DNA of 64,000 nucleotides from contig NZ_JANLCM010000002.1 in NCBI RefSeq assembly GCF_024979235.1, forward strand, positions 682,001 to 746,000. Direction: 5' to 3'. Source of the stretch: Herbiconiux aconitum. GTDB taxonomy: Bacteria > Actinomycetota > Actinomycetes > Actinomycetales > Microbacteriaceae. Shown here piece after piece: positions 2,870-50,696 of the stretch. Positions within the stretch are counted from its first letter, which is position 1; every line of letters begins with the position of its first letter. The notes below the pieces were generated by a model. That model was not told the origin of the DNA and did not search any database. It saw only the letters and a list, made by a program, of their open reading frames with translations. The position numbers were made by a program, and so were the translations under genes.

Positions 2870-3796
2870 GTGACAGACAACGGATTCCTCCGCGGACGGC
2901 TGCTGCTGGTCGCGTTCGAAGGCTGGAACGACGCCGGCGAAGCGGCCACCGGTGCGCTCCGGGTGCTCAAGGAGCAACTCGAGGTGGTTCCGATCAGCGA
3001 GGTCGACACCGAGGAGTACTTCGACTTCCAGTTCAACCGGCCGACGGTCTCGGCCGACGACGAAGGCCGGCGCGTGCTCACCTGGCCGGGCGCGACCGTG
3101 TACGGGCCCGATGGCGCCGTCGACACGGAGGCGACGGCGACGCCGGGCTCATCCGTCGATGCCGACGACGACTCGCACGTCTATCTCCTGATCGGCTCCG
3201 AGCCCTCCCGCAACTGGAAGAAGTTCACGGCCGAGATCATGTCGGCGGCAGTCGCCGAAGACATCAGCGGGGTGCTGCTGCTCGGGGCGATGCTCGCCGA
3301 CGTGCCGCACACCCGGCCCATCTCGGTCTTCGCCACCAGCGAGAACCCACTGGTGCGCAGTGAGCTCGACATCGAGCGCAGCTCCTACGAAGGACCGGTG
3401 GGCATCCTCAGCGTCATCGCCGACGCCGCCGAGAACGCGGGCATCCCCGCCATCTCGATCTGGGCATCCGTGCCGCACTACGTGCACAACGCGCCCTCCC
3501 CGAAGGCCACTCTGGCCCTGATCGACAAGATCGAAGAGCTCATCGACGTGCAGATCGACCGGGGTGAACTCGTCGAGGAGTCGAGCGCCTGGGAATCGGG
3601 CATCGACGCGTTGGCGGGCGAAGACGAAGACATGGCGGCGTACATCCAGCAGCTCGAGCAGGCGCGCGACACCGTCGACTCGCCCGAGGCGAGCGGCGAG
3701 GCCATCGCTCAGGAGTTCGAGCGCTACCTCCGCAAGCGCGGCGACGGTCGCGCCGGCGGCGATGGTCGGCCCGACGAGCCCTGGCGTCGCGACTGA
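2870..3796 (+). CDS. PAC2 family protein
   Basis: A 308-residue PAC2-family protein, named after archaeal and eukaryotic proteasome assembly chaperone 2. The N-terminal part (GRLLLVAFEGWNDAGEAATG) and the later ISIWASVPHYV segment are characteristic of the actinobacterial branch, for example mycobacterial Rv2125. The C-terminus is acidic and then basic, and probably flexible. The function in bacteria is not established. Actinobacterial members sit near proteasome and Pup genes, but no proteasome gene is present here. It is divergent from the HAD-trmI operon and is followed by a long repeat-filled convergent gap. The start is GTG. Confidence 0.85.
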   Translation: MTDNGFLRGRLLLVAFEGWNDAGEAATGALRVLKEQLEVVPISEVDTEEYFDFQFNRPTVSADDEGRRVLTWPGATVYGPDGAVDTEATATPGSSVDADDDSHVYLLIGSEPSRNWKKFTAEIMSAAVAEDISGVLLLGAMLADVPHTRPISVFATSENPLVRSELDIERSSYEGPVGILSVIADAAENAGIPAISIWASVPHYVHNAPSPKATLALIDKIEELIDVQIDRGELVEESSAWESGIDALAGEDEDMAAYIQQLEQARDTVDSPEASGEAIAQEFERYLRKRGDGRAGGDGRPDEPWRRD

Positions 3797-4330
3797 GTTG
3801 GTTGCCTCGGGCGCCGTGCTTCGCGCGGCGTCCTCGGGCGTCGCCGGTCCTTGCCCGGCGCCGCGCGACATGCTCGCGTGCGGTCGCTGACGCGGCCGCG
3901 CGCTCACCCTGGGTCGTCGAGTAGGGCCTGTTGCGTGGCGTGCCGTGCGCTCGTGTGCGAAACGACGGAGTTTCGGGGCCCACACCGGAAACGACGGAGG
4001 CTCCGCCCGCAGTTCCGCGCCCCCTCCGTCGTTTCGTTCTCGTTCTCGTTCTCGTTTCCCAAGTCGTGGGGCGCGAGACCGCAGGCCGCGGGCCGCTCCC
4101 GGATGACCCAGGGTGAGGCCGAGGCCGCGTCAGCGACCTCAGCCGAACATGTCGCCTCGCGCCGCAGAAGCGGCGGCGCGAGAAATGAGCGCCGAGCTAC
4201 CCGGCAGGGCAGCTCAGCGCGGGCAGTGGCGAGGCGGTACAGAAGCGGCGGCGCGAGCAATAAGGGCTCGCCCAGCCGAAGGCCGGGCGAGCCCGAAGAA
4301 TGCGGCGCGGTACCCAGTTCCCCGGCCCCC
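3797..4330. repeat. Interspersed intergenic repeat, copy A (inverted pair of half-modules)
   Basis: This 548-bp gap between convergent genes holds no credible gene. A plus-oriented half-module at 3866 to 3920 and a minus-oriented one at 4102 to 4154 face each other. The half-module reads CGACATG-TCG, a GC-rich stretch with GGTCGCTGACGCGGCC, then CTCACCCTGGGTCGTCGA. Left of the first lies a hairpin around CCGGTCCTTGCCCGG (cap b). Right of the second lies a hairpin around GCCGC-AGAA-GCGGC (cap a), then GGGCTCGCCC. The centre holds three copies of the ACGACGGAG motif or its complement. The same unit recurs, inverted, at 10117 to 10568. Confidence 0.88.
4034..4057 (+). repeat. 6-bp tandem repeat CGTTCT
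   Basis: Three perfect CGTTCT units followed by a degenerate fourth (CGTTTC) lie in the centre of repeat copy A. The equivalent place in copy B has one unit, so the tract length differs between copies. Confidence 0.7.
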
Positions 4331-9387: not shown

Positions 9388-10116
9388 ATGAAATGGGCAA
9401 TCGCCGACGTGGTCGGCGTTCGTGAGGAGACACCCACGGCGCGCACGATCATGCTGCGCATTCCCGGCTGGACCGGGGCTCTCGCCGGCCAGCACATCGA
9501 CATCCGGTTGACCTCACCCGACGGCTATCAGGCCGCTCGGTCGTACTCCCTGTCGTCGGCAGCGGGTGCCGAGTTCGCGTCGGTGAGCATCGAGCTGATG
9601 CCCGACGGGGAGGTCTCGCCGTACCTCGTGAGAGGTGTGAGCGTGGGTGACCAGCTCGAGGTGATCGGGCCGCTCGGCGGCTGGTTCGTCTGGAAGCCGA
9701 CACAGCCCGAGCCGCTTCGGCTGATCGGCGGCGGTTCGGGCATCGCCCCACTCGTCTCGATGCTGCGCACCCACGCCGAGGCCAAGAGCACCGCACCGGC
9801 CCACCTGCTCTACTCGGTGCGCTCCCCCGACTACGTCTACTTCCGTGACGAACTCGATGCGCTGGCGGCGGCCGCCGACGCCGAGGTGACGATCCAGTAC
9901 ACCCGGCACGCCCCCCAGGGCTGGACGGGCACCGTCGGCCGCCTGGATGGCGCGCGGGTGACGTCGTGGGCGGCGAGCACCGCTCCGGCCGACGGCGGCA
10001 CGGTCTCCACGTACATCTGCGGGCCCACCCGCTTCGTCGAATTGGCAGCCGACACCCTGGTGGCGACGGGAGCCGACCCGCTGACGGTGCGCACGGAACG
10101 GTTCGGCGGGGCGTAG
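9388..10116 (+). CDS. FAD/NAD(P)-binding ferredoxin reductase-like protein
   Basis: A 242-residue FNR-type reductase. The FAD-binding motif RSYSLSS is at about residues 51 to 57. A GGGSGIAPLVSML motif for the pyridine dinucleotide domain follows near residue 113, and YICGP is near the C-terminus. No 2Fe-2S cysteine cluster is present, so it lacks the ferredoxin domain of phthalate dioxygenase reductase-like enzymes. It probably passes NAD(P)H electrons to the molybdopterin protein encoded just upstream. This pairing is inferred from the 18-bp gene spacing. Confidence 0.87.
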   Translation: MKWAIADVVGVREETPTARTIMLRIPGWTGALAGQHIDIRLTSPDGYQAARSYSLSSAAGAEFASVSIELMPDGEVSPYLVRGVSVGDQLEVIGPLGGWFVWKPTQPEPLRLIGGGSGIAPLVSMLRTHAEAKSTAPAHLLYSVRSPDYVYFRDELDALAAAADAEVTIQYTRHAPQGWTGTVGRLDGARVTSWAASTAPADGGTVSTYICGPTRFVELAADTLVATGADPLTVRTERFGGA

Positions 10117-10568
10117 GGGTACCGCGCCGCGTTCTTCGGGCTCGCCCGGCCTTCGGCTGGGCGGGCCCTTATTGCTCGCGCCGCCGCTTCTGCGGCGCGA
10201 GGCGACATGTTCGGCCGAGGTCGGAGGGCCCGGCCTGCGGTCGGACCCTCCGGCCTCGGCCTCACCCTGGGTCGTCGAGCGCGGCCCGCGGCCTGCGGTC
10301 TCGTGCCCCACGACTTGGGAAACGAGAACGAAACGACGGAGGCGGCGCGGCACTGCGGGCGGACGCTCCGTAGTTGCCGGTGTGGGGCCCGAAACTCCGT
10401 CGTTTCGCACACGAGCGCACGGCACGGCACGCAACAGGCCCTACTCGACGACCCAGGGTGACGGCGAGGCCGCGAAGCGACCTCACCGGAACATGTCGCG
10501 CGGCGCCGGGCAGGGACCGGCGCCGCCCGAGGACGCCGCGCGAAGCACGGCGCCCGAGGCAACCAGCA
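10117..10568. repeat. Interspersed intergenic repeat, copy B (inverted relative to copy A)
   Basis: This 455-bp gap between convergent genes holds no credible gene. It is the reverse complement of copy A over most of its length. It begins with GGGTACCGCGCCGC and the GGGCTCGCCC hairpin, then cap a, a plus half-module at 10203 to 10278 of a longer subtype, the ACGACGGAG centre, a minus half-module at 10445 to 10498 and cap b. It ends with CGAAGCACGGCGCCCGAGGC. Its right arm up to the ACGACGGAG centre is almost identical to the left arm of copy A. Confidence 0.88.
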
Positions 10569-10571
10569 CAG

Positions 10572-10922
10572 CTACCCAGCCTTCACGACGCACCACTCGT
10601 TGCCCTCGGGGTCGAGGAGCACCTGGAAGGTGCCCACCGCATCGCTGTGCACCGGCCCTTGTCGTGCCGCTCCGAGGCGCTCGGCGGCATCCGTCGCCTC
10701 CGGCACGTCGTCGACGGCGACGTCGAGGTGCACCCTGTTTTTCGCGTTCTTGCCCTCCGGCACACGCTGAAAGGCGATACGGAGCCCTGTGGGGCTGTCG
10801 AAGTACGACCAATCGGGGCTGCGGTCGGTCGGCGCCGACCCACCCAGCACCTGCTGCCAGAAGCGCACCAGGGCGGCCGGCTCCGCGCAGTCGAAGACCA
10901 CCTCGTCGAGTGAGCCGAGCAT
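10572..10922 (-). CDS. VOC family protein (glyoxalase/bleomycin-resistance fold)
   Basis: A 116-residue protein with one vicinal-oxygen-chelate domain. The beginning (LGSLDEVVFDCAEPAALVRFW) and end (FQVLLDPEGNEWCVV) are typical of the actinobacterial glyoxalase-like branch. Potential metal ligands include His66 and Glu109. The biochemical role is unknown. The ribosome binding site GAGGTGAGG overlaps the stop codon of the upstream POT transporter gene, with only 2 nt between the genes, so the two are translationally linked. Confidence 0.85.
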   Translation of the reverse strand: MLGSLDEVVFDCAEPAALVRFWQQVLGGSAPTDRSPDWSYFDSPTGLRIAFQRVPEGKNAKNRVHLDVAVDDVPEATDAAERLGAARQGPVHSDAVGTFQVLLDPEGNEWCVVKAG

Positions 10923-19906: not shown

Positions 19907-19912
19907 TAGGAT
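19907..19912 (+). promoter_or_regulatory. Leaderless -10 (TAGGAT) of the histidine phosphatase
   Basis: TAGGAT ends 7 nt before the ATG at 19920. An in-frame ATG at 19911 overlaps the box itself, which argues for the later start. Confidence 0.5.
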
Positions 19913-19919
19913 GGTGGCG

Positions 19920-20546
19920 ATGACTACCTTCACCTTCGTGCGCCACGGCCAGACCGACTGGAACTTCCAGAAACGCATCCAGGGCTCGACCGACATCCCC
20001 CTGAACGAGATCGGTCGCGAGCAGGCGCGCGAGACCGGAGCCGCCCTGGCGGAGCGCACCTGGGACGGCATCGTCGCCAGCCCCCTGAGCCGCGCCCGGG
20101 AGACGGCCGAGATCATCGCCGGCATCGTCGGCCTCGGCGAACCCGAGCTCGTCGGCGCCCTGGTCGAACGCAGCTACGGCGAGGTCGAGGGCCTGAACGC
20201 AGCCGAACTCGCCGAGCGGTTTCCCGACCCGATGGCGGATGTGCCGGGCCGCGAGAAGCGCTCGCACGTGGTGCGCCGGGTGCTGCCCGCGCTCGAGAAG
20301 CTGGCGGCCGAGCATCCGGCTGAGTCCCTCATCGTGGTCTCGCACGGCGGCGTGATCGGCTCGTTGATCCGCTATGTCACCGAGAAGGCGCTGCCCCAGC
20401 AGGGCCACGCGATTCCGAACGGGTCGGCGCACGACTTCGTGGTCGACGGCGGCGAACTGTCGATCATCGCTTTCAACGGCGTGCCGATCGACCCGTCAAT
20501 CCGGTCGCGAGCACCGCTATCGCTCGAGCTGACGCTGCCCAACTGA
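19920..20546 (+). CDS. Histidine phosphatase family protein (phosphoglycerate mutase-like)
   Basis: A 208-residue cofactor-independent-type phosphatase of the PGM-like family. The phosphohistidine motif FVRHGQTDWN is near residue 5, the catalytic Glu lies around residue 82 and the second His is in VVSHGGVIG. The protein is shorter than dPGM glycolytic mutase and is more likely a broad phosphatase; the substrate is unknown. Its last 74 bp overlap, on the opposite strand, the end of the glycosyltransferase gene, which is unusual spacing for this window. Confidence 0.88.
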   Translation: MTTFTFVRHGQTDWNFQKRIQGSTDIPLNEIGREQARETGAALAERTWDGIVASPLSRARETAEIIAGIVGLGEPELVGALVERSYGEVEGLNAAELAERFPDPMADVPGREKRSHVVRRVLPALEKLAAEHPAESLIVVSHGGVIGSLIRYVTEKALPQQGHAIPNGSAHDFVVDGGELSIIAFNGVPIDPSIRSRAPLSLELTLPN

Positions 20547-25514: not shown

Positions 25515-25870
25515 CCCGCCGTCCGCCCCTACCCGCTCGGTCGGCCCCAGCCGCCCCCACCCTCACCCAAACGACGGAGTTTCGCCCCGAGAACCCGAAG
25601 CGACGGAGGCACACTCCGCGTGTCGCGAAGAACTCCGTCGATTCGCACCTGGGCGAACCTGCGCGAGTCGACCACGAGCATCCGCACCTCCTGATCGAGG
25701 TGCCAGCCGCCGCCGGCTCCCATCGCGATCGCAGGCCGCGGGCCGCGCTCGACGACCTAGGGTGAGCGCGAGGCCGCGTCAGCGACCTCACGCGAACATG
25801 TCGCCTCGCGCCGCAGTAGCGGCGGCGCGAGCAGTGAGCGACGCGCGACCGCAGGCCGCGCATCGCGGGA
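25515..25870. repeat. Interspersed intergenic repeat, copy C (single half-module)
   Basis: The gap between the convergent exonuclease and bL31B genes holds a centre with ACGACGGAG motifs (25572 to 25655, ending in ACTCCGTCG) and one minus half-module at 25749 to 25803, capped by a GCCGC-AGTA-GCGGC hairpin (cap a). The left half-module seen in copies A, B and E is missing. No gene is seen. Confidence 0.8.
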
Positions 25871-27096: not shown

Positions 27097-27102
27097 AGTT
27101 TA
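27097..27102 (-). promoter_or_regulatory. Leaderless -10 (TAAACT) of the ABC ATPase gene
   Basis: TAAACT ends exactly 6 nt before the ATG at 27090. Confidence 0.55.
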
Positions 27103-27169
27103 TCGGGCGGCGTCAGGTGTATTTGACGAACGGTGCTTGGGTACCACATCGCCACTTCCCACGATGCGC

Positions 27170-27292
27170 CGGCCTGCGGCTGGCGCGTCGCTCATTGCTC
27201 GCGCCGCCGCTTCTGCGGCGCGAGGCGACATGTTCGCGTGCGGTCGCTGACGCGGCCGCGCGCTCACCCTGGGTCGTCGAAAAAGGCCCGCA
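27170..27292 (+). repeat. Interspersed intergenic repeat, copy D (single half-module)
   Basis: A plus half-module at 27226 to 27280 differs from the left one of copy A at one of 55 positions. It is preceded by the GCCGC-TTCT-GCGGC hairpin (cap a). This copy lies between two genes on the same strand, downstream of glgA and upstream of the ABC ATPase gene. The remaining bases to 27378 show no feature. Confidence 0.85.
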
Positions 27293-27378
27293 GCCCGCAA
27301 TATCGTGCTCCCCTATCAGGCTCCTGGCTTGCTTCCGCCGACCCTCAGTCGCCTGGCTGGCTCCCGCCGGCTACGGGC

Positions 27379-28563
27379 TCACCCCACGAGCGACCGGTAG
27401 ATCCCCGCCGTCTGGGCCGCGATCGACGACCAGCTGAACTCGGCCTCGGCTCGGGCGCGTCCGGCCTCGCCCATCCGTGCCGCACGCACCGGATCGGTGA
27501 CGACCTCTGTCAGCGCGCGCGCCAGGTCGGTCACGAAACGGTCGGGGTCGGTGGGGGTTCCGGTGCCGTCCTGCAGCTGGTCGATCGGCACGAGAAGTCC
27601 GGTCACCCCGTCGTCGACGACTTCGGGGATGCCCCCGGTCGCCGTGCCCACCACCGGCAGCCCGCAGGCCATCGCCTCGAGGTTCACGATGCCGAGCGGT
27701 TCGTAGATCGAGGGGCAGACGAACACGGTAGCGGTGGTGAGGATGGCGGTGAGCGAGGGCTGCGGCAAGATCTCCTCGATCCAGACGATGCCGCCTCGTG
27801 TCTCCTGCAGCGCCCGCACCGCCGTGCTCACCTCGTCGAGAATGGCCGGCGTATCCGGTGCGCCTGCGCACAGCACGACCTGCACCTCCGCGGGCAGCAG
27901 AGCGATGGCGCGCAGCAAGTAGGGCAGACCCTTCTGCCGGGTGATCCGACCCACGAACACCACGGTGGGGCGCGTGCTGTCGATACCGTGCCGGGCGAGC
28001 ACCTCCTCGTCGTAGTGCGGCTTCCACTTCTCGAGGTCGATGCCGTTGTAGACCACGGTCACTTTCGACTCGTCGAGAGCGGGATAGGAGCGCAGGATGT
28101 CGCGGCGCATCCCATCGCTCACCGCGATGACGGCGTCGGCCGACTCGAACGCATCCTTTTCGATCCACGACGAGACGCGGTAGCCGCCGCCGAGCTGCTC
28201 GGCCTTCCACGGTCGCAACGGCTCGAGCGAGTGGGCGGTGACGACATGGGGCACGACGTGCAGCAGGGCCGACAGCCGGCCCGCCGCATTGGCGTACCAG
28301 GTGTGCGAGTGCACGAGGTCGGTGCCGGCGGTGGCCTCGGCGATCTGCAGATCGACGCCGAGGGTCGTCAAAGCGGGGTTCGCTCCGTCGAGCTCGGCGG
28401 GCACCCGGTAGGCGAAGACCCCTTCCTCCGAGCGGGGTGCGCCGAAGCACCGCACCGTCACGTCGAGGTGGGCGCGGAGTCCTTTCACCAGTTCGGCGAC
28501 GTGCACTCCCGCCCCTCCGTAGACCTCGGGCGGATACTCTCGTGAAATCACATCTACTCGCAT
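27379..28563 (-). CDS. glgA: Actinobacterial glycogen synthase / maltose-1-phosphate synthase
   Basis: A 394-residue GT4 GT-B enzyme. It starts with RVDVISREYPPEVYGGAGVH, whose glycine-rich loop binds the donor, and has the FVGRITRQKGLPYLL segment and the EPLGIVNLEAMACGLPVVGT donor site. In mycobacteria the orthologue GlgM, also divergent from glgC, makes maltose-1-phosphate from ADP-glucose, so a maltose-1-phosphate product is as likely as glycogen extension. The ATG is 6 nt after a TACCGT -10. Pairing with GlgC places it in storage alpha-glucan synthesis. Confidence 0.9.
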   Translation of the reverse strand: MRVDVISREYPPEVYGGAGVHVAELVKGLRAHLDVTVRCFGAPRSEEGVFAYRVPAELDGANPALTTLGVDLQIAEATAGTDLVHSHTWYANAAGRLSALLHVVPHVVTAHSLEPLRPWKAEQLGGGYRVSSWIEKDAFESADAVIAVSDGMRRDILRSYPALDESKVTVVYNGIDLEKWKPHYDEEVLARHGIDSTRPTVVFVGRITRQKGLPYLLRAIALLPAEVQVVLCAGAPDTPAILDEVSTAVRALQETRGGIVWIEEILPQPSLTAILTTATVFVCPSIYEPLGIVNLEAMACGLPVVGTATGGIPEVVDDGVTGLLVPIDQLQDGTGTPTDPDRFVTDLARALTEVVTDPVRAARMGEAGRARAEAEFSWSSIAAQTAGIYRSLVG

Positions 28564-29856: not shown

Positions 29857-30548
29857 CGCAGCAGCTGCTGGCACACGATTCTTCGCCCGCGAGCCAGCCG
29901 ACCGCCGATCGATCGCGCTTCCTCGTCGTGCTCGACGTCGATTCGACGCTGATCGAGAACGAGGTCATCGAGATGCTCGGCGATCTGGCCGGATGCCACG
30001 CCGAGGTGGCCGAGATCACTGAACGCGCCATGCGCGGCGAACTCGATTTCGCGCAGAGCCTCGCGGCCCGGGTCGCGCTGCTCGAGGGACTGTCCGACAC
30101 CTCCTTCGCCGAGGTCGGCGCCGCCATCCGCGTCACCGCAGGGGTCCCCGAGATGATCACCGCGGTACACGCTGCCGGCGGCGCCGTGGCCGTCGTCTCA
30201 GGCGGCTTCCACGAGGTGCTCGACCCGCTGGCCACGTCGCTCGGCCTCGACCACTGGCGCGCGAACCGCCTCGGTGTGCGCGGCGGAGTCCTCACCGGCA
30301 GCGTCTCGGGCCCGATCATCGACCCCCAGAGCAAAGCGGATGCCCTGATCGAGTGGGCAGGTTCACGCGGCATCCCGCTCTCCCGCACCCTCGCAGTCGG
30401 CGACGGCGCCAACGACCTCCGCATGATGGAGGTCGCAGGCCTCTCGGTCGCCTTCGACGCCCGACCCTTGGTACGGGAGCACGCCGACATCATCATGGAC
30501 GTGCGCGACCTCTCGCAGCTGCTCCCCTTACTGGGCCTCCGCGGCTAA
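29853..30548 (+). CDS. serB: Phosphoserine phosphatase SerB
   Basis: A 231-residue HAD phosphatase for the last step of serine synthesis. The nucleophile motif is [31 protein letters not shown], the Lys in DPQSKADAL and [11 protein letters not shown] complete the set typical of SerB. It lacks the N-terminal ACT domain of longer SerB proteins. It overlaps glgC by 4 nt, so serine and glycogen genes share a transcript. A long bidirectional hairpin follows. Confidence 0.93.
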
Positions 30549-34652: not shown

Positions 34653-35546
34653 TCAGGGCACGAGAAGTGCGCCGCGCCGATGTCGCGCAGCCCACCGGTG
34701 CTCGCCGCGGCGCATCAGGTCGCGGATGACGGCGAGCACCCGCTCCCATTGGAACATGACCTGCTCGTAGCTCAGCCGGATCACCAGGTACCCCATCGAG
34801 ACGAGCGCCAAATCCCGCCGCTTGTCCTCGCGAAACGACTTCTTGTCGGAGTGCCATCGGCGCCCGTCGACCTCGATGACGAGCCGATCCCCCACCACGA
34901 GATCGACGTCACCGACACCCGAGACGGAGACCTGGCTTCTGCATCGAATCCCCGCGGCGCGCAGACCGAGACGTGTGTGCGTCTCGACTCCCGACTCGGC
35001 AGGCGCGAGCACCTGAGCGAACTCGCTGTACCGGCGGGGTAACGTGTCGAGCAGTTCGAGAACTCGGGGCTGCCGGATCACCCTCAGATGCAGCGCAGAC
35101 TCCAGCGACGCGATCGCATCGAGCCGAGGTTGACACATCGTCGCGTGCAGCAGCGCCCACTCGATCGAGTCGACACCGCCCCGGGCGGGTGTCGGCGTGC
35201 TCGTCGGCCACGACCTGTGAATGTGCAGCCCATCAGCGGCAGCGCTCGGCGCGATCTTGTCGAAACGCGGTACCCGTACGTGCAGAAGGCGGGACTCTGG
35301 CGTATCCGCTGTCCAGACATCCCGAGCACGCAGTACTGACACGCAGGAGAGCGTTCCGCGCGCGGCGACCGAGCGCACCACCTCGGGCGGGGCACCCGGG
35401 AGCGCGACCCACCCGCGGCGGACGCGTCTCACGGCGCCGGCCGCCACTGAGGCGTCGATCGCGCGCAACGAGAAGCCGCGGGCAGCCAGCTCTCCGGTGG
35501 ACGCGACCCCTCCGAGCGCAGCGACAGATTCGGCGACGGTGTGCAT
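34653..35546 (-). CDS. AbiEi-like winged helix / DUF559 putative endonuclease
   Basis: A 297-residue protein. Residues 1 to 50 resemble the AbiEi-type winged-helix domain (GGVASTGELAARGFSLRAID...VRRVRRGWVALPG). Residues 180 to 285 resemble DUF559/Vsr-like PD-(D/E)XK nucleases: Glu188 in ESGVETHTRLGL, Asp213/Asp215 in GVGDVDLVV and Glu225/Asp227 in VIEVDGRRWH, followed by DKRRDLALVSMGYLVIRL. Proteins of this build are common in Microbacteriaceae and their function is unproven. It is bracketed by the related palindromes P1 and P2 and splits the sufT and ABC-F genes. The ATG at 35546 has no clear ribosome binding site. Confidence 0.75.
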   Translation of the reverse strand: MHTVAESVAALGGVASTGELAARGFSLRAIDASVAAGAVRRVRRGWVALPGAPPEVVRSVAARGTLSCVSVLRARDVWTADTPESRLLHVRVPRFDKIAPSAAADGLHIHRSWPTSTPTPARGGVDSIEWALLHATMCQPRLDAIASLESALHLRVIRQPRVLELLDTLPRRYSEFAQVLAPAESGVETHTRLGLRAAGIRCRSQVSVSGVGDVDLVVGDRLVIEVDGRRWHSDKKSFREDKRRDLALVSMGYLVIRLSYEQVMFQWERVLAVIRDLMRRGEHRWAARHRRGALLVP

Positions 35547-35643
35547 GCCGCGAGCCTGCCCGAACAAGGCGGCAGCCGGCCCTGGCCGCACACATCTGTG
35601 GACAACAGAACTACGCCGGGCCCTGTGGACAACGGCGGACGCT

Positions 35644-49376: not shown

Positions 49377-50147
49377 ATGACAACTGACCGCCGTGTACTC
49401 GTCCACCCCGACAAGGAGTCGCTCGCCGGCTCCGTGGCCGCCCGGTTCATCACCAAGGTCATCGACATCCTCGACGAGTTCGACGATGCGACCGTGGTGC
49501 TGACCGGCGGCACGATGGGGAGCGCGGTGCTCGCGGCGATCCGTTCGTCAGCGGCGTCGGACACGATCGACTGGTCGCGCATCAACTTCTGGTGGGGCGA
49601 CGAGCGATTCGTGCCGAAGGGCGATCCCGACCGCAACGACCTCCAGGCGCGGGAAGCCCTGCTCGACCACATCCCGGTCGACGAGTCGCGGGTGCACGCC
49701 TTCCCGGCGTCCGACGAAGTCTCCGACCTCGACGAGGCGGCCCGGGTGTACGCCCGCGAACTCGCGGCTGCAGCGCCCGAGGGTGCTGACTATCCGCGCT
49801 TCGACATCATGTTCCTCGGTGTGGGGCCCGACGGCCACATCGCCTCGCTCTTCCCCGGCCACGACGAGATCCGAATCACGGATGCGACGGTCGTGCCGGT
49901 GCGCAACTCCCCCAAGCCGCCGCCGGAGCGCCTCAGCCTCAGCTTGCCCGTCATCCAGTCCGCCGACCGCATCTGGATGGTGCTGGCCGGCGCTGACAAG
50001 GCTTCTGCCATCGGTCTGGCACTCGCGGGCGCGAGCACCGACGAAGTGCCCGTGGCCGGCGCGCAGGGCCGCAAGCGCACGGTCTTCTTCGTCGACCGCG
50101 AGGCGGCGGCAGAGGTTCCGGAGTCGCTCATCGCGCCGAGCTACTAG
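49377..50147 (+). CDS. pgl: 6-phosphogluconolactonase
   Basis: A 256-residue lactonase (DevB type) that hydrolyses the Zwf product. Motifs are VLTGGTMGSAVL, FWWGDERFVP and the catalytic GVGPDGHIASLFPGH. The ATG at 49377 follows an in-frame TTG at 49374. It ends the tkt operon and faces rbpA across a repeat-rich gap. Confidence 0.94.
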   Translation: MTTDRRVLVHPDKESLAGSVAARFITKVIDILDEFDDATVVLTGGTMGSAVLAAIRSSAASDTIDWSRINFWWGDERFVPKGDPDRNDLQAREALLDHIPVDESRVHAFPASDEVSDLDEAARVYARELAAAAPEGADYPRFDIMFLGVGPDGHIASLFPGHDEIRITDATVVPVRNSPKPPPERLSLSLPVIQSADRIWMVLAGADKASAIGLALAGASTDEVPVAGAQGRKRTVFFVDREAAAEVPESLIAPSY

Positions 50148-50635
50148 CCGCCGTGCGGCCCGGGCTTCGCTCGGGCTGCCCGGGTCGCGCCGGTCCTTGC
50201 CCGGCGCGACGCGACACGTTCGCGGGCGGTCGGAGAGCGCGGCCTGCGGTCGCACCCTCCGGCCACGCGCTCACCGTGGGTCATCGAGCGCGGCCCGCGG
50301 CTTGCGGCCTCTTCCCGCCGTCTCCTCGGGCGTGTGACGAGCTGCGGCCCACCCCGGCACGTCTGAGCGCAGCCCGCCCCCTGCATCCTCGTTCCGCACG
50401 TCGCGGCTCGAGGGCTCGCCCATCGAGTCGCCAAAACACGCCGCAACGCCGCGCCGCATTCCGACAGTTTTTGGCGAATGGGTGACGGAAGTCTCATCGA
50501 GGGCCGCGGGCCGCACTCAGACGACCCAGCGTGAGCGCGCGGCCGCGTCAGCGACCGCACGCGAACATGTCGCGGAGCGCCGGGCTGGGACCGGCGCGAC
50601 CCGAGGAGGCCGCGCGAAGCACGGCCCCCGAGGCA
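50148..50635. repeat. Interspersed intergenic repeat, copy E (inverted pair)
   Basis: This gap between convergent pgl and rbpA holds no credible gene. A plus half-module of the longer subtype at 50212 to 50287 faces a minus half-module at 50519 to 50572. Both carry cap b hairpins (CCGGTCC-TTGC-CCGG and GGGCTGGGACCGG types). The centre lacks ACGACGGAG motifs and instead has TCGCCAAAA (50428 to 50436) paired with TTTTGGCGA (50469 to 50477). The right end repeats CGAAGCACGG-CCCGAGGCAAC of copies A and B. Confidence 0.85.
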
Positions 50636-50677
50636 ACAAAAAGGGAAGCACCCCACGCCGTCGTGAGGGCTTCCCTT
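50636..50677 (-). terminator. Terminator of the gapA-rbpA region
   Basis: On the minus strand AAGGGAAGC pairs with GCTTCCCTT across a 19-nt loop and is followed by five T. It lies 19 nt past the rbpA stop. Confidence 0.85.
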
Positions 50678-50696
50678 CAGGTTTCAGAGACCTAGG

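Follow-up and report, generated by a model that had tools for sequence, protein, structure and literature searches.

ERIC, BOX, Correia and similar MITE-like repeats are structured intergenic elements of 100–200 bp, BOX being built of several parts, and occur in hosts unrelated to the one considered here; set against them by description, the Herbiconiux modules are alike in size and structure. REPs are described, in the parts of PMC3733652 drawn on here, as palindromes of 20–40 bp with an unpaired GTAG or CGTC tag at their end, the CGTC families being without a dedicated transposase. The same parts list tagged families for phyla other than that of our host and also name untagged REP-like families, for M. 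tuberculosis, which is an actinobacterium too, among others. For REPINs it has been argued, in the sections of PMC3116915 used here, that the inverted doublet is the copied unit and that solo elements are its remnants.

The repeat family of this study was noticed in a stretch of 64,000 nucleotides from Herbiconiux aconitum (hereafter the window). Like REPs and BIMEs as characterized in these parts of PMC3733652, it consists of high-copy, extragenic, imperfect palindromes, which lie in convergent and tandem gaps with few in divergent ones, form inverted pairs, contain G-U (G-T) pairs and supply a TAG stop from the element end. This is the organization of REP/BIME elements in the broad sense. 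Unlike the short REPs described there, the Herbiconiux module comprises three hairpins in about 160–190 nt. Beyond the copies, their structure, their placement and their presence or absence between species, which are direct observations, we consider it on balance probable that this is a genus-specific, REP/BIME-like family of non-autonomous dispersed repeats, which are recognized as a folded single strand and dispersed in trans.

All eight half-modules of about 55 bp that the first-pass annotation had described were recovered with identical coordinates and strands (Table 1), and the left copy of gap A and the copy of gap D do differ at one of 55 positions, as it had stated. Of the two conserved ends that had been proposed, the 3′ motif is clear: with up to three mismatches CTCACCCTGGGTCGTCGA matches the window eight times, exactly at the eight half-modules, as compared with 0.23 expected matches. 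The 5′ motif alone is weaker, with 22 window matches at up to two mismatches versus 11.6 expected. The five gaps that contain modules are indeed the five largest of the window (548, 455, 425, 288 and 549 bp, based on our own ORF calls and two Pfam-supported ORFs missed in these, 19911–20546 and 34653–35591), and four of them (A, B, C and E) are convergent, as claimed, with gap D being tandem. Inverted doublets occupy gaps A, B and E, solo modules gaps C and D. The repeat unit is longer than the 55-bp half-module and includes two hairpins upstream (hp0 and hp1) and a further helix downstream.

Table 1. Modules and associated palindromes in the window.
Feature	Position	Strand	Remarks
Gap A, R-type module (hp0, hp1, core 3866-3920 with hp2, 3′ part)	3797..3957	+	begins directly after the TGA stop of gene 2870-3796
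Doublet A, middle palindrome	3958..4041	.	GAAACGACGGAG at 3959-3970 and 3988-3999, complement at 4024-4035
Gap A, Y-type module (core 4102-4154)	4051..4239	-	starts within hp1 of the truncated older Y copy
Gap A, older Y copy, truncated (GGTACC at its 5′ end, hp0 and half of hp1)	4240..4314 (about)	-	
Gap B, Y-type module, long hp2 (core 10203-10278)	10117..10326	+	directly follows the TAG stop of gene 9388-10116
Doublet B, middle palindrome	10327..10406	.	GAAACGACGGAG at 10330-10341, complement at 10395-10406
Gap B, R-type module (core 10445-10498)	10407..10571	-	behind gene 10572-10922, which stops with TAG
Gap C, Y-type solo module (core 25749-25803)	25715..25870	-	
Gap D, Y-type solo module (core 27226-27280; hp2 27236-27263)	27139..27313	+	
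Gap E, R-type module, long hp2 (core 50212-50287)	50146..50319	+	supplies TAG as the stop codon of gene 49377-50147
Gap E, second R-type module (core 50519-50572)	50487..50637	-	

An alignment of the copies together with their flanks gave the order hp0, hp1, a joining segment GCGACATGTTC, hp2, TCACCCTGGGTCGTCGAG and GGCC, so that the module consists of three hairpins, a further short helix and conserved segments joining them. Two flank types can be distinguished, R (43 copies) and Y (44 copies), with two other copies being typed neither way. In R-type copies a YTRG tag, which reads CTAG, TTAG, CTGG or TTGG, precedes YTGCC and hp0 in 22 of the 32 copies that could be parsed (of 43), and the consensus 5′ end of Y-type copies is GGGTACCGCC. 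The stem of hp2 has 12 mostly G-C pairs; a pattern parse, successful in 146 of 158 cases, yielded 42 different arm pairs and 103 fully paired stems, the rest being made up in part of long-loop variants which the pattern misparses. By eye, the long form of hp2 (10203-10278, 50212-50287 and others) carries an apical hairpin like the tip of the Y-type hp0, GCGGCCTGCGGTC, and looks as if hairpins had been swapped like cassettes.

The first-pass annotation had held that its reading would fail if no copies existed beyond these eight. This was not the case: with 150 of its 3652 candidates scored, a covariance model built from the eight window copies identified at least 89 copies of full length in the assembly (4.16 Mb), and a second search, of the fetched regions and the window, again gave 89. 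Across 60 genomes, including this one, 14 of 16 from the genus but none of 44 outside it matched the model, with counts per genome being lower bounds (68 candidates each). A shallower scan, limited to 20 candidates per genome and filtered more strictly, gave three matching genomes among 199 of the family. All three are of the same genus, and none of the 195 outside it matched; the fourth genus member in this set, G001, had no match. A search for the exact-end pattern in one genome each of 84,980 species returned 25 stretches, which carry the name Herbiconiux or 'Corynebacterium-like bacterium B27'. Searches of plasmid and phage collections and an exact-pattern scan of viral contigs revealed no match to the repeat. 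Within the genus, copy numbers are patchy, with 0, 1, 7, 15, at least 66 and, in this genome, at least 89. No match was found in G001 and G009 and a single one in G013. These three genomes probably form one clade, as in all three the orthologue of gene 29928-30548 is inverted, an inversion that is found in no other of ten relatives compared. In Rfam, only a tRNA reached the gathering cut-off in the whole window, and a scan of 27100-27400 at permissive settings yielded a single match, at chance level and outside the module. We found this family described neither in Rfam nor in the literature searched, mostly outside subscription journals, in agreement with the first-pass annotation, to which no such family was known. 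PMC10011130, on the pangenome of Herbiconiux, does not use the terms 'palindrom', 'intergenic', 'transposase' or 'mobile', and uses 'repeat' once in another sense.

The hairpins are well supported by covariation. In structure-free alignments, mutual information lets the stems of hp0, hp1 and hp2 emerge in both R and Y types, with off-register and background pairs also ranking among the top scores. In the alignments fitted to the structure of the model (A3 and A4), 96.8% of 2342 cells pair in this genome and 16 of 27 pairs changed on both sides with pairing kept, which was reached by none of 500 shuffles, and among 65 distinct rows from loci of relatives 96.3% of cells pair and 13 of 27 pairs show changes on both sides; since compensatory pair types may have spread by exchange between copies, these cells cannot be counted as independent events. 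Of the two U-G pairs of hp2, the inner is conserved as such in 86 of 87 distinct rows from this genome and in 65 of 65 from relatives, whereas for the outer the figures are 79 of 87 and 47 of 65. The helix behind hp2 likewise contains a U-G pair, kept in 74 of 87 rows here and in 63 of 65 from relatives. As the opposite strand would give A-C in place of U-G, the folded strand is the strand read here, and the paired double changes together with the almost invariant inner U-G pair argue that selection acts on one of the strands in its folded, single-stranded form. Hairpin-templated correction is unlikely to be the source of the covariation, because the U-G pairs persist. Single copies fold modestly better than shuffled sequences on the strand read here (z −1.0 to −4.8), and copy D, the only one for which both strands were compared, does so on the plus strand (z −2.4) but not on the minus strand (+0.4). 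The strand-specific U-G pairs, the covariation and the behavior of copy D would also suit a cis-acting RNA element at mRNA 3′ ends, such as a terminator, a stabilizer or a protein-binding site under host selection, an alternative which on the sequence evidence we regard as possible but rather unlikely. Covariation and wobble pairs are unexpected if the modules were the long inverted ends of a MITE, with R and Y modules being read as double strands by a DDE transposase, which is one reason why we consider a MITE very improbable.

The arrangement of the doublets bears on the same question. Among close pairs in this genome (<600 bp) 16 of 17 are inward-facing and one is same-strand, and among distinct pairs within 1 kb at loci of relatives 14 of 16 are inward-facing and two same-strand. 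The inner gap measures 136–148 bp in 13 of the 16 doublets. Such regularly spaced, inward-facing ends are what a MITE would show, as is the copying of composites as wholes, which also speaks for the dispersed-repeat reading: two composites located at unrelated places share 93% identity across 465 bp as well as a nested truncated copy, and the Y-in-truncated-Y arrangement of gap A recurs at the unrelated place G000:C1:162892. Yet the outer termini differ (YTRG-YTGCC in R, GGGTACCGCC in Y), 57 copies lie outside doublets and 32 within them, and no target duplication was seen in the gaps read by eye, in which the junctions are diverged. By eye, similar 5′ remnants precede the copies at C2:185424, C2:890263 and C2:1439404. 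Where both 3′ halves of a doublet could be typed, 12 of 13 combine R and Y, and the 5′ halves of the 16 doublets are R/Y in ten, R/R in three and Y/Y in three; these mixed combinations indicate that halves have been exchanged between copies. An exact GAAACGACGGAG or its complement occupies the middle of 12 of 16 doublets. It forms a separate repeat family, for which the genome has 82 exact sites as compared with none for the reversed control. One or two copies are followed by a complementary one at a distance of about 36 or 65 bp, and the family is also found at G000:C1:207353, C1:640180 and other places as well as away from any listed module. In gap A orthologues of G003, G011, G012 and G013, different imperfect palindromes of roughly 60–90 bp were seen by eye, which may be counterparts of this middle palindrome. 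Like in REPINs, as far as these are covered in the sections used of PMC3116915 and PMC8049555, the inverted doublet is likely the copied unit with solos as remnants, and inheritance is mostly vertical. Unlike in REPINs, the spacer of the Herbiconiux doublets often holds another palindrome family, no RAYT was found in this genome, and conservation is not clearly higher in doublets than in solos (R type, 0.849 versus 0.849, p 0.51; Y type, 0.874 versus 0.841, p 0.12).

Modules are placed predominantly at gene ends. Of all copies, 59 lie in convergent gaps, 14 in sense and 13 in antisense orientation in tandem gaps, two in divergent gaps and one within a called ORF (G000:C2:1123350-1123450, in a putative ORF of 417 aa on the minus strand). 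The share of convergent gaps, for which the first-pass annotation had suggested a genome-wide count, is 46 of 71 copy-bearing gaps, with 23 tandem and two divergent, as compared with 43 convergent, 217 tandem and 83 divergent gaps without a copy, all of them in regions that were chosen for holding a copy and analyzed with our own ORF caller. In the same regions and ORF calls, the stop codon is TAG in 39 of 59 genes that have a sense module no more than 100 nt away, versus 92 of 351 others (Fisher p 6e-9). Among the orthologues in G001, in which no copy was found, TAG ends 7 of 19 genes on the module side and 28 of the 80 other genes. The TAG excess thus does not predate the element, and TAG as a pre-existing target was rejected. 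With the protein end being at the same codon in 15 of these 19 orthologues, the element seems to bring or favor the TAG while leaving the protein end unchanged. The orientation of solo modules is balanced (C1 16/14, C2 13/12); no replication-strand bias was seen, the origin not being mapped, and there is thus no sign of a lagging-strand bias.

The position behind stop codons and the convergent bias are also in line with a cis-acting RNA element, in which case a doublet would provide each convergent gene with its own 3′ element. However, the 14 sense and 13 antisense copies in tandem gaps are not what a pure 3′-UTR role would lead one to expect, and such a role also fits poorly with three genus genomes having no copy or one and with the orthologous genes of most relatives compared being without a copy. 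The regular presence in convergent gaps, which are where supercoils gather, and the exchange of halves between copies could further point to sites that are bound by gyrase or a nucleoid protein and have spread through gene conversion. As this would leave both the strand-specific fold and the presence at new places unexplained, we consider it scarcely probable.

A role as bidirectional terminator, which had been raised in the first-pass annotation, obtained partial support from hp0 of the Y type, and none from the R type or the remaining parts of the module. Between 2500 and 12000 nine terminator-like sites were predicted versus 3.4 in shuffled sequences, three of the strongest being located in Y copies, and the Y-type hp0 appears terminator-like in gaps A and B. 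At least four T within eight positions at the end of hp0 are present in 30 of 44 Y but only in 2 of 43 R copies, so that R-type hp0 is mostly without a T tail, and the scan gave no terminator-like site for the gap E modules. If the Y-type hp0 does terminate transcription, the most constrained part of the module (hp1, core and hp2) would fall behind the terminator, which speaks against the RNA reading. In gap E, moreover, a separate hairpin between an A-run and a T-run (about 50638-50680) was seen by eye in all ten relatives; it is absent from the simple scan but looks like a native bidirectional terminator.

Of the roles offered in the first-pass annotation, that of a non-autonomous mobile unit is best supported, although no mobilizing enzyme was found. 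A RAYT, for which a nearby search had been suggested there, was not found: the Y1 transposase/RAYT family (PF01797) has no match in this genome while the E. coli control was positive, and a RAYT was rejected as mobilizer for this genome. Within the genus, PF01797 occurs in one of 16 genomes, G001, in which no copy was found. Reverse transcriptases are present in 3 of 16 genomes (G001, G007 and G009), and IS110 is above the cut-off in G006 and below it in G003; both are missing from this genome, and neither fits the copy numbers. A search for IS91-like Y2 enzymes matched none of the 16 genomes, but gave no match in the control genomes either. Among 139 of 140 genes neighboring modules no family occurs more than three times and none of the 25 commonest of 281 families is a transposase, in a scan that left out L121:3914-7330 and could miss a lone transposase beside one copy. 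Under dispersal in trans, the three-hairpin module would be recognized as a folded single strand of one defined orientation and copied around the chromosome, often as an inward-facing doublet, by a trans-acting enzyme, which may since have been lost, acting on a folded DNA strand. Insertion would take place at or just behind gene 3′ ends, with the element end often supplying the TAG stop, and would be tolerated between convergent genes but not in promoter gaps; doublets would then decay to solos. Against mobility stands that no movement was seen.

As to classification, the REP/BIME resemblance put forward in the first-pass annotation applies to the layout, but not to the two REP marks that were tested, the foot tag and a RAYT. 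Unlike the tagged REPs in the part of PMC3733652 used here, the modules carry no GTAG or CGTC tag at the foot of hp2. GTAG or GTGG within 0–2 nt 5′ of the hp2 foot is found in 2 of 89 copies, and 6 of the 43 R-type and 9 of the 44 Y-type copies hold it in the segment 5′ of hp0. At the 5′ foot of hp2, CGTC, TGTC or CCTC is found in none of 89 copies, CGTC REPs being defined by a tag at the foot of an 8–9 bp stem with A-T first pairs; 59 of the 89 copies do have CGTC in their 3′ half, but behind hp2. As both tag and RAYT tests failed, the family is REP-like in organization and is not filed under the GTAG or CGTC families. That it represents a third REP-like superfamily with a variant tag (the R-type YTRG in place of GTRG before hp0), with several hairpins, a non-Y1 enzyme and insertion at stop codons, in an actinobacterial genus, appears doubtful. 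The Herbiconiux repeats would give Actinobacteria a well-resolved example of REP-like elements with inverted doublets. REP-like repeats that lack a RAYT pose a standing puzzle, for which this genus, with its varied copy numbers, kept synteny and strong covariation, allows asking which gene tracks the number of copies and whether it is DNA or RNA that folds.

The dispersed-repeat reading is further supported by the presence of modules differing gap by gap between close species, the genes being syntenic. The window gaps were compared in ten relatives across up to 70 kb of kept synteny. In gap A the model matched once in G002 and twice in G012, and in gap E once in G002; gaps B, C and D gave no match in the relatives compared, gap B being laid out only in G002 and G011. 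G011 has one match, in another gap. Of 24 further gaps, 22 were readable in G002, with 13 containing a full match, two a fragment recognized by eye (loci 11 and 21) and seven none, and three G002 matches fall outside the compared gaps. In G001 none of 11 readable gaps has a copy and none of 17 fetched stretches matches the model. The gaps with a copy common to G002 imply that many copies are old, and thus speak for age as well as for turnover. At the 13 common loci, seven G002 copies have the same orientation as here and six the opposite one; locus 3, one of the seven, is R here and Y in G002. The fragment at locus 11 is in opposite orientation, and that at locus 21 has the same orientation but the other type. 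Locus 23 contains a whole R module here, and in G002 the first bases of R and a Y module in the other orientation, which is best read as an ancestral doublet of which a different half was lost in each lineage. For the other shared gaps, independent insertion into the same gap is possible. Gap D measures 288 bp here versus 28–184 bp in the ten relatives, and in G011, with 184 bp, it includes by eye an apparent degenerate 3′ remnant of a module.
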